Assembly (NCBI RefSeq): GCF_021631985.1
Contig: NZ_CP070225.1
Span: 3,782,001-3,846,000 of the forward strand
Direction of reading: 5' to 3'
From: Sandaracinus amylolyticus
GTDB lineage: Bacteria > Myxococcota_A > Polyangia > Polyangiales > Sandaracinaceae
DNA length: 64,000 nt
Part shown: one piece after another, positions 20,803 to 25,126 of the stretch
Position numbering within the stretch: the stretch's first letter is position 1
Layout of the letters: each line of letters starts with the position of its first letter
Translations under genes and position numbers: made by a program
Notes under the pieces: generated by a model
The model's input: the letters and a program-made list of their open reading frames with translations, nothing else
Told to the model about the DNA's origin: nothing
The model's database searches: none

Positions 20803-21411
20803 ATGTGGGCGCACTTCATCTACCGCGTGCACGCGACGAGCCTCGCGGAGGTCGAGCGCGCGATCGCGCGCAACGCGGAGCTCATCGCGCGACCGAAGAG
20901 CGGGCACTCGTACGGCTACGTGCTCGAGCACGTCTGTCGTTTCGACGGTGCGCGGAAGAGCGTCGTGCTCGATCGCGATCCGCATCGGCCTGCGTACTGG
21001 CACTCGCTGGCGAGCGAGGAGGACGTGCTGCGCCTGGTGCACGAGCGTCGAGGGAACGGGCTCTTCGGGCGAGGGACGGCGACGGACACGACGCCCCCTG
21101 CGGCGCTGATGGCGGAGCTGCGCGTGCGCCATCGCGCGGTGTGGACGCGCGAGGAGGAACGCGCGCTGCTGCGCGAAGCGGAGGAGCGCGCGCGGGTGTG
21201 GGCGCTCGACGAGGAGCCGCTCCGCAGCTCTCCGTGGGCTTCGATCTGGGGCCTGATGCGAGCGCGCTGGAAGTGGACGAAGCGCCACACCAGCGCGACG
21301 TCGTTCCCGTTCATCCGCGCAGGGATCGACGTGTACAAGGCCGACGGGTTCGAGCTCGGCACGCCCGGCGCGGGCACCGCGTTCTATGCGTTCGCGCTCT
21401 TCCACTACTGA
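20803..21411 (+). CDS. Protein of unknown function
   Basis: The 202-residue protein is rich in Arg, Glu and aromatic residues, with no signal peptide or membrane segment. Recognisable stretches are YGYVLEHVCRFDGARKSVV, the central helix TREEERALLREAEERARVWALDEE and the end GTPGAGTAFYAFALFHY. I do not recognise the family. It sits between lon and the threonine leader, same strand as both, but the leader has its own candidate promoter. Confidence 0.65.
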   Translation: MWAHFIYRVHATSLAEVERAIARNAELIARPKSGHSYGYVLEHVCRFDGARKSVVLDRDPHRPAYWHSLASEEDVLRLVHERRGNGLFGRGTATDTTPPAALMAELRVRHRAVWTREEERALLREAEERARVWALDEEPLRSSPWASIWGLMRARWKWTKRHTSATSFPFIRAGIDVYKADGFELGTPGAGTAFYAFALFHY

Positions 21412-21419
21412 CGGCGCGT

Positions 21420-21447
21420 TTGCGCGATCACGCGCGCTCGGCATACT
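21420..21447 (+). promoter_or_regulatory. Candidate promoter of the threonine leader transcript
   Basis: TTGCGC (21420-21425), a 16-bp spacer and CATACT (21442-21447) lie immediately before the leader peptide. Transcription would begin about 4 nt before the leader ATG, giving a nearly leaderless start, which is a weakness of this assignment. Confidence 0.35.
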
Positions 21448-21457
21448 GAGCCTCGTC

Positions 21458-21517
21458 ATGTCGCTCGCGTTCGCGCGCACCACCACGACCACCACTACCC
21501 GCGAGGCGGGTCGGTGA
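21458..21517 (+). CDS. Threonine-rich leader peptide (attenuation sensor)
   Basis: A 19-residue frame reads MSLAFARTTTTTTTREAGR. Residues 8-14 are seven consecutive threonines (21479-21499; five ACC, one ACG, one ACT). It ends 134 bp before the start of a threonyl-tRNA synthetase gene. Runs of codons for the amino acid made or charged by the downstream gene define attenuator leader peptides (for example the thr, his and leu leaders of enterobacteria). Ribosome stalling here would report low charged tRNA-Thr. A weak GAG precedes the ATG by 7 bp. Confidence 0.85.
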   Translation: MSLAFARTTTTTTTREAGR

Positions 21518-21591
21518 TCGTGCGCGCGTAGACGAGACGAACGACGCGACAACCACGATCGAACCGACGACCCGCCCGACGCGACGGGTCG
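21506..21591 (+). promoter_or_regulatory. Attenuator: mutually exclusive stems upstream of the ThrRS gene
   Basis: Two alternative structures share one strand. A long stem pairs 21506-21522 (GCGGGTC, GGT and GATCGTG blocks) with 21554-21575 (CACGATC, ACC and GACCCGC blocks). A compact GC stem pairs 21568-21574 (CGACCCG) with 21585-21591 (CGGGTCG). The leader stop codon (21515-21517) lies in the 5' strand of the long stem. A ribosome that finishes the leader would cover that strand and release 21568-21575 for the compact stem. A ribosome stalled on the early Thr codons would leave the long stem free to form. No run of T follows the compact stem, so it may act by Rho or at translation rather than as a classic intrinsic terminator. 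Confidence 0.7.
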
Positions 21592-21623
21592 ACGGCGTGG
21601 TGCATCGATCCGGCGTGCTCGGG

Positions 21624-21644
21624 CTCCTGACCGAACCGAAGGAG
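21624..21644 (+). promoter_or_regulatory. Possible stem hiding the ThrRS ribosome-binding site
   Basis: CTCCT (21624-21628) can pair with AGGAG (21640-21644), which is the Shine-Dalgarno sequence of the ThrRS gene, 7 bp before its ATG. This could add translational control downstream of the attenuator. A 5-bp stem is weak evidence alone. Confidence 0.35.
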
Positions 21645-21651
21645 AACGACG

Positions 21652-22854
21652 ATGCTCGACGACGACGATCACCGCGCGATCGCGCGGAGGCTGGGGCTGC
21701 TGCACTTCCAGGAGGAGGCCCCCGGCATGGTGTTCTGGCACCCGCGCGGCCTCGCGATGTACCGCGCGCTGGAGGACGCGCAGCGCGCGCAGGTGCGGCG
21801 CGAGGGCTACGAGGAAGTGCGCTCGCCGCAGGTGATGCGGCGTCCGATCTGGGAGGCGAGCGGGCACTGGAAGCACTTCGCCGAAGGGATGATGCGCATC
21901 GACGACGACGAGCTCGAGGCCGCGCTCAAGCCGGTGAGCTGCCCCGGGCACGCGCAGATCGTGAAGCGCATGGCGCCCTCGTATCGCGATCTGCCGATCC
22001 GTCTCGCCGAGCTCGGCGTGGTGCATCGCGACGAGGCGAGCGGCGCGCTGCACGGGCTCATGCGGCTGCGACAGTTCTCGCAGGACGACGGACACGTGTT
22101 CTGCGAGGAAGCGCAGGCCGAGGACGAGGTGGTGCGCTTCCTCGAGGGGCTGCGGCCGTTCTACGCGCAGTTCGGCTTCCACGAGCTCGACGTCGCGCTC
22201 TCGCTGCGGCCCGAGGATCGCGCCGGCGACGACGCGGTGTGGGATCGCGCCGAGGCGGTGCTCGCGCGCGCGCTCGATCGACGCGGAGAGAAGTACCGCG
22301 TGCAAGAAGGCGCAGGCGCGTTCTACGGCCCGAAGATCGAGGTCGCGCTGCGGGATCGCGCGGGGCGTCTCTGGCAGTGCGGGACGATCCAGATGGATCT
22401 CGTGATGCCGGTGCGCTTCGACCTGCGCTACGTGGACGCGCGCGGCGAGAAGCAGCCGGTGGTGATGCTGCATCGCGCGCTCTACGGCAGCCTCGAGCGC
22501 TTCCTCGGCATCCTGCTCGAGCAGCACGGTGCGTCGCTGCCGGCGTGGCTCGCGCCCGAGCAGATCGTCGTGGTGCCGGTGTCGGGCGCGCAGCACGAGA
22601 TCGCGCGGGCGCTGGTGCGGAAGCTCGAGCGCGACGGTGCGCGGGTGTCGATCGACGCGCGCGAGGAGTCGCTCGCGCGGCGCATCGCCGAGGCGCACGA
22701 GCGCGGCGTGCCCCACGTCGCGATCGTCGGGGCGCGCGAGGTCGAGCGCGGCGAGGTCGCGCTGCGATCGCGAGACGGCCAGCGCGTGCTCGCCGAGGAC
22801 GACGCGCGCGCACTCCTGCGCGAGGCGCTCGCGCGACCGGAGCGTGCGTCGTGA
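21652..22854 (+). CDS. thrS: Threonyl-tRNA synthetase, compact form without TGS and editing domains
   Basis: The 400-residue protein contains only the class II catalytic core and the C-terminal anticodon-binding domain; a full ThrRS has about 640 residues. Zinc ligands that select threonine are present at C97 (PVSCPGH), H148 (SQDDGHVFC) and H274 (MLHRALYGS). Motif 2 is HRDEASGALHGLMRLRQFSQ and motif 3 is HRALYGSLERFLGILLEQ. The anticodon domain begins near WLAPEQIVVVPVSG. Lacking the N2 editing domain, it cannot clear Ser-tRNA-Thr by itself. A full-length ThrRS presumably exists elsewhere, making this a conditional or trans-edited paralogue. The upstream Thr leader implies induction when charged tRNA-Thr falls. 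The ATG has GGAG 7 bp upstream. Confidence 0.9.
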   Translation: MLDDDDHRAIARRLGLLHFQEEAPGMVFWHPRGLAMYRALEDAQRAQVRREGYEEVRSPQVMRRPIWEASGHWKHFAEGMMRIDDDELEAALKPVSCPGHAQIVKRMAPSYRDLPIRLAELGVVHRDEASGALHGLMRLRQFSQDDGHVFCEEAQAEDEVVRFLEGLRPFYAQFGFHELDVALSLRPEDRAGDDAVWDRAEAVLARALDRRGEKYRVQEGAGAFYGPKIEVALRDRAGRLWQCGTIQMDLVMPVRFDLRYVDARGEKQPVVMLHRALYGSLERFLGILLEQHGASLPAWLAPEQIVVVPVSGAQHEIARALVRKLERDGARVSIDAREESLARRIAEAHERGVPHVAIVGAREVERGEVALRSRDGQRVLAEDDARALLREALARPERAS

Positions 22855-22870
22855 TCGAGGGCACTACTCG

Positions 22871-22908
22871 GGAGGCCGTCGCGCCGCGCCCATGGCGCGA
22901 CGGCCTCC
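22871..22908 (+). terminator. Strong hairpin after the ThrRS gene
   Basis: A perfect 15-bp stem (22871-22885 with 22894-22908) and an 8-nt loop begin 16 bp after the stop codon. There is no T run, as is usual for terminator-like hairpins in this DNA. Confidence 0.5.
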
Positions 22909-24010: not shown

Positions 24011-25126
24011 TCACAGCGCGCCGTCGAGGATCCAGGTGGGATCGCGGGCGTCGGCGGTGGTGATCTGACCGAGGATCGCGTCGTTGCCGCGCAGCGAGCG
24101 ATCGAGCGCGATCTGGCCCGCCGGCGCTTCCTCGAGCGGCCAGTACGCAGCGAGCGTGGCGGTGCCGGTCGGCAGGCGCGTGAACGCCGACGCCTGGAGC
24201 GCGGCCGCGCTGCGCACCGTGCTCCAGATGCGGATCTCGTCGAGGTCGCCATCGAAGCGGCCGATCAGGAGCGGCTCGATGTTGAACGAATCGCCGATGT
24301 CGTCGGGGAAGTCGGCCATCGCGACGACGGTGAAGTTCACGTAGAGGAGCGTGCGCAGCACGGTGCCGGTGCGCTGGATCGTGAGCGCGACGTGCGTCCA
24401 CTCGCCGAACGCGTCGAAGGGCGCGCGCACCTCGCGGCGCTCGCTGCGCACGGTGGTCCAGCCCGCGACGAGCTCGATGCGGCCGTCGGCACCGGTCACG
24501 AGCTCGAAGACGAGGTGGCGCTGGCCGTCGTCCTGGCCCTTGCGCGCGATGATCCCGGTGCCGCGGGCGCGCATCCAGAGCTCGGTCGTGGTGTCCCCGC
24601 CGACGCGAAGACCGGGGCGATCGGGGACGAGGAGGTACTGATCGGGCGTGAACCGGAGCGCGGGCGAGCGACGGCCTGCGTCGATCGGGCCGGCATCGCG
24701 GGGGCCGGCATCGCGCGGCGGGCCGGCATCGCGCGGCGGGCCGGCGTCGCGCGGCGGGCCGGCGTCGCGCGGCGGACCGGCATCGCGCGGCGGGCCCGCA
24801 TCACGAGGACCTGCGTCGCGCGGCGGACCTGCGTCGATCGTGCCCGCGTCGAAGCGGCCTCCGTCGGACGGGCCGGCATCGTCGGGCACCGAGCCGTCGT
24901 CGGGCGGTGCCGCGTCGAAGGGGAACGTCGCGTCGACGTCGATCGGGAACCCCGCGTCCATCGCGGCATCCGAGCCGTCGCCCCCGTCGGATGGGGCGCT
25001 TCCGTCGAAGCCGATGCGCGCATCGACGGCGTCGATCGGTCCGTCTCCGCGCTCGCGCGCCTCGTAGCACCCGGTCAGCGCGATCGTGATCGCCAGCGCG
25101 ATCACGCAATTCGCGCGCGAAGTCAT
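24011..25126 (-). CDS. LamG-domain lipoprotein with Asp-Ala-Gly repeat linker
   Basis: The 371-residue protein has a lipoprotein signal (TIALTGC20), a long acidic linker (about 30-150) ending in tandem PPRDAG repeats, and a C-terminal concanavalin-like LamG/laminin-G type domain (about 155-371). The domain pattern is LWMRARGTGIIARKG, then GEWTHVALTIQRTG, FDGDLDEIRIWSTVRS and AYWPLEE. This fold usually binds glycans or matrix. An in-frame ATG 18 bp upstream (25144) is an alternative start. The Asp-Ala-Gly linker style recurs in the GH1 lipoprotein at 11.4 kb. Confidence 0.82.
   Translation of the reverse strand: MTSRANCVIALAITIALTGCYEARERGDGPIDAVDARIGFDGSAPSDGGDGSDAAMDAGFPIDVDATFPFDAAPPDDGSVPDDAGPSDGGRFDAGTIDAGPPRDAGPRDAGPPRDAGPPRDAGPPRDAGPPRDAGPPRDAGPRDAGPIDAGRRSPALRFTPDQYLLVPDRPGLRVGGDTTTELWMRARGTGIIARKGQDDGQRHLVFELVTGADGRIELVAGWTTVRSERREVRAPFDAFGEWTHVALTIQRTGTVLRTLLYVNFTVVAMADFPDDIGDSFNIEPLLIGRFDGDLDEIRIWSTVRSAAALQASAFTRLPTGTATLAAYWPLEEAPAGQIALDRSLRGNDAILGQITTADARDPTWILDGAL
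24689..24835 (-). repeat. Tandem 18-bp coding repeats (PPRDAG units)
   Basis: About eight tandem copies of an 18-bp unit, some shortened to 15 bp, encode (P)PRDAG in the lipoprotein linker. Near-identity of neighbouring units suggests recent slippage or unequal exchange, so copy number probably varies between strains. Confidence 0.75.

Follow-up and report, generated by a model that had tools for sequence, protein, structure and literature searches.

The window, a stretch of 64,000 nt from the Sandaracinus amylolyticus genome, contains on its forward strand a gene for a short threonyl-tRNA synthetase (ThrRS; gene thrS) that is preceded by a tiny Thr-rich reading frame and followed by a hairpin. 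The leader frame comprises 19 codons, from an ATG at 21458 to a TGA stop at 21515–21517, and its Thr codons read ACC ACC ACG ACC ACC ACT ACC (21479–21499); a gap of 134 nt separates the stop from the thrS ATG at 21652. A preliminary description of this DNA, made from the sequence alone, had reported just such a leader, with seven Thr codons in a row, 134 bp before the ThrRS start, and we found it at the positions given there; the coordinates and stems of that description hold to within one base. The features discussed here, including six RNA strands numbered in 5′ to 3′ order and the Shine–Dalgarno (SD) sequence of thrS, are as follows.

21420–21425, forward strand: −35-like TTGCGC, presumed promoter (promoter-pair scoring over 30 loci)
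21442–21447, forward strand: −10-like CATACT, 10 nt before the leader ATG (promoter-pair scoring over 30 loci)
21458–21517, forward strand: leader reading frame, MSLAFARTTTTTTTREAGR followed by a stop (read from the sequence; homologous Thr-rich leaders at 39 of 39 loci)
21472–21502, forward strand: strand 1, which holds the Thr codons and pairs with strand 2 (swap test; window fold)
21479–21499, forward strand: seven consecutive Thr codons, presumed sensor (read from the sequence)
21505–21528, forward strand: strand 2, GGCGGGTCGGTGATCGTGCGCGCG, which contains the leader stop (alignment A1, in which GGCGGG and TCGTGCGCG are conserved)
21555–21576, forward strand: strand 3, which can pair with strand 2 as antiterminator or form the 5′ side of a terminator-like hairpin (2 × 3 swap test)
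21585–21595, forward strand: strand 4 (covariation and swap tests of 3:4)
21612–21628, forward strand: strand 5, pairing partner of the SD and start codon of thrS (5 × 6 swap test; window fold)
21640–21656, forward strand: strand 6, from the thrS SD to the start codon, sequestered by strand 5 (swap test, accessibility, window fold)
21652–22854, forward strand: auxiliary threonyl-tRNA synthetase, 400 aa (Pfam PF00587 and PF03129; TIGR00418)
22871–22908, forward strand: perfect 15-bp hairpin without a T run, 17 nt past thrS (read from the sequence)

The only domains of the short ThrRS are the class II catalytic core (PF00587) and the anticodon-binding domain (PF03129). It scores 433.5 bits against TIGR00418 (cut-off 383.65) and aligns to residues 243–617 of E. 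coli ThrRS (1QF6), which comprise the catalytic and anticodon-binding regions; as judged by Pfam and by the alignment to the E. coli enzyme, the 400-aa protein has neither a TGS nor an editing domain. A motif scan showed that the zinc-ligand C/H/H motifs are retained in 41 of 43 short proteins. The same genome encodes a full-length ThrRS at C1:2223558, upstream of which we found an apparent tRNA-Val gene and no Thr leader, and a full-length enzyme is likewise present in all ten genomes with the short enzyme that were checked (this one and nine others). When 39 short ThrRS proteins were placed in a tree with 26 full-length ones, a single branch with support of 100/100 set the short proteins apart. 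These comparisons identify the gene under presumed control as a backup, editing-less ThrRS paralog and not the housekeeping enzyme. The position of the borrelidin contact Leu489 of E. coli is occupied by L or M in short and full-length ThrRS alike and does not discriminate between them, and no conserved gene neighbourhood hinting at function was seen in the few loci scanned. Downstream of thrS, the hairpin at 22871–22908 is probably the 3′ end of a one-gene transcript, and hairpins like it may act as transcript ends in this lineage. Farther on, a reading frame at 24496–25100 contains many repeats of an Asp-Ala-Gly-Pro-Pro-Arg-type unit.

Six or more ACN codons in a row occur at only about 30 separate places on both strands of the whole 10.96-Mb genome, so that a run lying in frame just before a ThrRS gene is already unlikely by chance; the decisive test against chance, within sequence comparison, is conservation across loci. 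We picked loci by ThrRS protein similarity alone and dropped five near-duplicates, which left 39 non-redundant short-thrS loci, 38 from Myxococcota and one from Acidobacteriota; the named near orthologs, for example those of Nannocystis and Polyangiaceae, all belong to Myxococcota. A scan upstream of thrS for frames in which four or more of six codons specify Thr recovered a leader at 39 of the 39 short-thrS loci; applied to full-length thrS, the identical scan was positive at 7 of 104 loci. Across the short loci the leader lies 88–366 nt from thrS. Four loci found later also have a Thr leader (two from Acidobacteriota, and those of Burkholderia arboris and Caballeronia). In the Burkholderia arboris and Caballeronia loci (L219, 2369–2466, and L220, 2359–2456), Thr leader, hairpin and short ThrRS lie on megaplasmids or secondary replicons, a location that points to horizontal transfer.

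Each leader contains 5–10 Thr codons in runs of 4–9 (30 loci counted), and over these 30 loci the Thr codons used are ACC (110), ACG (70), ACT (26) and ACA (1). Because the third base varies, it appears to be Thr itself that is kept and not merely an RNA word. Leader length ranges from 16 to 36 aa; the N terminus shows no conservation, and a C-terminal pattern, ..GG..VV.(C/R)AR directly before the stop, recurs among loci. At L113 and L134 the leader is 245 and 366 nt before the conserved ThrRS start, and these loci possibly carry N-terminal extensions or inserted sequence.

Between the leader and thrS, the preliminary description had drawn two mutually exclusive stems that share a segment. Both stems exist and the overlap is real, with edges one base away from those first given: 21506–21522 pairs with 21555–21576 (CGACCCGCC plus ACGATC), 21568–21574 (CGACCCG) pairs with 21585–21591 (CGGGTCG), and 21568–21574 is common to the two. 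Hairpin 3:4 as a whole extends over 21564–21595. The leader stop, which had been described as sitting in the strand that decides between the stems, indeed falls inside strand 2, and the arrangement is the classical one, with Thr codons in strand 1 and the stop codon within strand 2. Single-sequence folding was uninformative at 70% GC, the window stems being not significant against dinucleotide shuffles (z from −0.9 to −2.0). In an alignment of 28 sequences (A1), by comparison across loci, 88.9% of the 3:4 pairs are standard, seven of the eight pairs carry two-sided changes and 27 cells are compensated, against 8.5 ± 2.5 after shuffling (0 of 500). Covariation of 21568–21574 with 21585–21591, which had been suggested as a check, is thus borne out by strong compensatory change.

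The core of 2:3, GGCGGG:CCCGCC, hardly varies, and its covariation does not exceed that of shuffles. For this reason we used a swap test, which sets the duplex energy of strands native to one locus against that of strands exchanged between lineages; the test is independent of alignment columns and ignores phylogeny. With kinship thus ignored, native partners were favoured for 2 × 3 (z = −4.35 with the core left out, z = −5.29 with the full strands), for 1 × 2 (z = −2.71, p = 0.003) and for 3 × 4 (z = −8.4, and z = −10.9 in a second set); in the second set, 2:3 with short strands gave z = −2.66. The other proposed check, covariation of 21506–21522 with 21554–21575, therefore holds for the outer parts, which pass the swap test, and fails for the core. 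Among the controls, the unexpected pair 1 × 3 gave z = −0.36, and 2 × 4, 2 × 5, 2 × 6, 3 × 6 and 4 × 6 showed no native advantage. Across lineages, sequence comparison supports the pairings 1:2, 2:3 and 3:4. In constrained folding of the window, the free RNA was predicted to form 1:2 and 3:4, masking of the Thr codons gave 2:3, and masking of the stop region gave 3:4. A Thr run or stems that vanish in relatives had been named in the preliminary description as grounds for giving up its reading; both are conserved, which weighs strongly against doing so.

At E ≤ 3e-4, a covariance model of the element had hits in 24 of 183 order-level genomes, each with a short ThrRS, although most of the recovered loci belong to the training set. 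The model also detected four loci outside the training set (Burkholderia, Caballeronia and two Acidobacteriota), and among the 183 genomes it found no convincing copy of the element outside those with a short ThrRS. Spread of the same hairpin from Myxococcota to Acidobacteriota and Burkholderia suggests that the ThrRS gene and its switch travel together. A second hit of the RNA model in the Sandaracinus genome, at C1:2537653, lies inside a coding gene and was rejected.

The SD-hiding stem that had been pointed out as a possibility at 21624–21644 is also present and conserved. CTCCT at 21624–21628 pairs with AGGAG at 21640–21644 across the thrS SD (AAGGAG, 21639–21644), and the 5 × 6 swap test gave z = −7.67 (p < 5e-5, 28 loci, kinship ignored). 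Predicted accessibility of the SD and AUG was 0.298 for native sequences compared with 0.459 when strand 5 was shuffled (p = 7e-8). In many loci strand 5 is complementary to both strand 4 and strand 6, as at L132 (CCGGACGGGGC with GCTCCGTCCGG; CTCCGTC with GACGGAG), and release of strand 4 raised the mean predicted accessibility to 0.388, compared with the native 0.298 (p = 0.001) and with 0.334 when strand 4 was shuffled (p = 0.019). In the window itself the SD stays hidden when strand 4 is released (0.31 vs 0.37), and constrained folding does not account for an opening of 5:6 in the on state. Native 4:5 pairs were not better in the swap test (z = −1.57, p = 0.059), and against shuffles 4:5 did no better than a control pair; because neither test was significant, a 4:5 relay was dropped as a general feature.

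Over 30 loci, the best −35/−10 pair just before the leader start had a mean score of 7.5/12, compared with 5.0 at control start codons, and pairs scoring at least 8/12 were found at 50% of loci versus 1.25% of controls; the window’s own pair scores 7/12. In most loci the −10 element ends 6–10 nt ahead of the leader start, and an SD-like 4-mer precedes the leader start in 4 of 30 loci and thrS in 25 of 30. Given this close spacing of the −10 element and the scarcity of SD-like words, the leader frame is probably leaderless or nearly so. Leader peptides of this kind have precedents in Sinorhizobium trpL (PMC7298713) and in Streptomyces (PMC8079986).

We propose that a ribosome-mediated, Yanofsky-type threonine attenuator very probably controls the auxiliary ThrRS gene. 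The preliminary description had reached the same reading, and the leader and stems conserved across lineages make it the best explanation. Sequence comparison supports the leader and its specific association with the short paralog, the pairings 1:2, 2:3, 3:4 and 5:6, and the promoter position; from these features we infer stalling, switching and a response to threonine. Transcription would begin at the leader AUG or a few bases from it, and a ribosome would load straight onto the emerging RNA. With ample Thr-tRNA, the ribosome would pass the Thr run, reach the stop in strand 2 and cover that strand, whereupon the terminator-like hairpin 3:4 would form and thrS would be off; without translation, 1:2 would form, 3:4 would again form and the gene would likewise be off. 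With scarce Thr-tRNA, the ribosome would stall on the early Thr codons and cover strand 1, so that 2:3 would pair, 3:4 would be prevented and the backup ThrRS would be made. Only early stalling fits, because a ribosome halted at Thr codon six or seven would also mask strand 2 in part. Stem 5:6 would conceal the SD and start codon of thrS and hold expression low.

Transcription termination is rather likely to be the main and ancestral output of 3:4. The window has no T run after this hairpin, as the preliminary description had observed of its compact stem, but homologous hairpins elsewhere carry T4–T6, for example in Nannocystis (GGGGCTTTTGC, T4), at L115 and L145, and in Burkholderia (GGGGCTTTTTT, T6), and the absence can therefore be read as a trait of this lineage. 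Across loci, T directly after the hairpin stands at 30% versus 20% (p = 6e-4). Moreover, the distance from the end of 3:4 to thrS is 39 nt or more (median 58), too great for the hairpin itself to block the ribosome site. A 20-kb part of the window contains seven T-run terminators versus 4.0 ± 1.9 in shuffles, hardly an enrichment, and the genome may accordingly make little use of such terminators.

The same sensor could also act on translation, through a relay of 1:2, 2:3, 3:4, 4:5 and 5:6 that needs no terminator: stalling would lead to 2:3, strand 4 would be free to take strand 5 and the thrS SD and start would be exposed, and otherwise 3:4 and 5:6 would hide the SD. Such an output would agree with the strong conservation of 5:6, the double complementarity of strand 5 in many loci, the higher mean predicted accessibility with strand 4 free and the lack of a T run in the window. 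We nevertheless consider it unlikely, since 4:5 fails the swap test and equals the control pair against shuffles, the window’s SD stays hidden with strand 4 freed, and T runs past 3:4 in several lineages favour termination. Marginally less likely still is a single element with both outputs, in which a five-stem relay of strands 1–6 would expose the thrS SD and start alone or on top of termination, according to lineage. In lineages without a T run, the sensor might instead work through Rho, with the untranslated C-rich stretch past the leader stop admitting Rho and the stalled complex or 2:3 blocking Rho termination. The T-run-less window and the scarcely enriched T-run terminators of the 20-kb stretch would suit this output, which is improbable all the same because Rho needs no conserved 3:4 and 3:4 is the best conserved stem.

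Two further explanations would make the attenuator itself secondary or unnecessary. E. coli thrS is autoregulated at its SD and start region, and the conserved stem over the SD and AUG could in principle be the site of a similar operator, at which ThrRS protein would feed back on its own mRNA with the Thr leader in a secondary role. ThrRS autoregulation is mentioned in PMC2965389. Here, though, the sequence and loop of the stem vary freely, no loop resembling the tRNA-Thr anticodon was recognised by eye, and the Thr leader and 1:2, 2:3 and 3:4 would be left unexplained, all of which makes such feedback very improbable. The idea that the product of the leader frame is a conserved small protein with a role in trans draws on its recurrent C-terminal end, but the recurring residues are the coding content of the conserved strand-2 RNA, and the variable length and unconserved N terminus speak against a protein; we regard this as barely credible.

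The attenuator that we favour matches no Rfam family. The T-box model (RF00230) had no covariance-model match in the whole genome, with control genomes positive, and Thr_leader (RF00506) had no gathering match in the window and none at E ≤ 5 in 21400–21680. The preliminary comparison with the T-boxes of Gram-positive bacteria is thus beside the point for a myxobacterium whose genome has no T-box. The thrLABC attenuator (RF00506) controls biosynthesis and senses Thr and Ile; both it and the present element place leader Thr codons in control of downstream genes, but its target is biosynthesis and its Rfam family has no match here. In B. subtilis, thrS and thrZ are said to be under T-boxes (Putzer 1992); there too a second ThrRS gene is induced on shortage of tRNA-Thr, but uncharged tRNA is sensed directly. 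Vecchione and Sello (2010, J Bacteriol 192:3565) reportedly found ribosome-mediated transcriptional attenuation of the gene for the indolmycin-resistant auxiliary TrpRS of Streptomyces coelicolor. That gene is likewise a second aminoacyl-tRNA synthetase (aaRS) gene under a leader-peptide attenuator for its own amino acid, but that amino acid is Trp and the phylum another, whereas here the paralog lacks an editing domain and the SD-hiding stem is conserved. Lopatovskaya et al. 2010 is said to be a comparative study of aaRS attenuators. Searching the literature turned up no aaRS element of this kind for Myxococcota, and the study by Lopatovskaya et al. may contain related predictions.

Candidate trpS and leuS attenuators in Streptomyces and a pheST attenuator in gammaproteobacteria have been described in a study that reported no threonine element in Actinobacteria (PMC1262725); they too represent classical leader-peptide attenuation of an aaRS gene, for other amino acids and in other taxa. 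For Streptomyces lividans, a leaderless Thr leader, thrL, has been predicted upstream of thrS with one hairpin that lacks a U run (PMC8079986). It resembles our element in these respects, but has only two Thr codons (MKRVRPFLETTPGFVPAR) and was described in one genome, its stems without a comparative test. The T1/T2 ThrRS pair of Anabaena also includes a stress-induced auxiliary ThrRS, but the signal there is low zinc (PMC9437257). The element appears to be an undescribed, well-supported attenuator family in Myxococcota that is also found in Acidobacteriota and on megaplasmids of Burkholderiaceae. Its sensor type is already known; its target, its taxa, the conserved stem hiding the ribosome-binding site (RBS) and the probably leaderless leader are new.

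The proposed switch links a starvation signal to a second ThrRS without proofreading. It raises the question of whether accuracy is traded for supply or whether the enzyme is a spare that can be induced to withstand borrelidin or other ThrRS inhibitors, an idea that parallels the Streptomyces TrpRS and indolmycin. The RBS-hiding stem, together with the absence of the T run in some lineages, offers a natural set for studying how output changes between transcription and translation.

Tiny Thr-rich frames were also observed before full-length thrS in Lysobacterales/Xanthomonadales-like genomes (loci L074, L107, L073 and L104). In this group the frames read MSTTTAHC, MSTTTTR and MKTTTTN, each up to a stop codon, and are followed by a hairpin with a T6–T9 tail; they possibly represent an independent Thr attenuator of housekeeping thrS.
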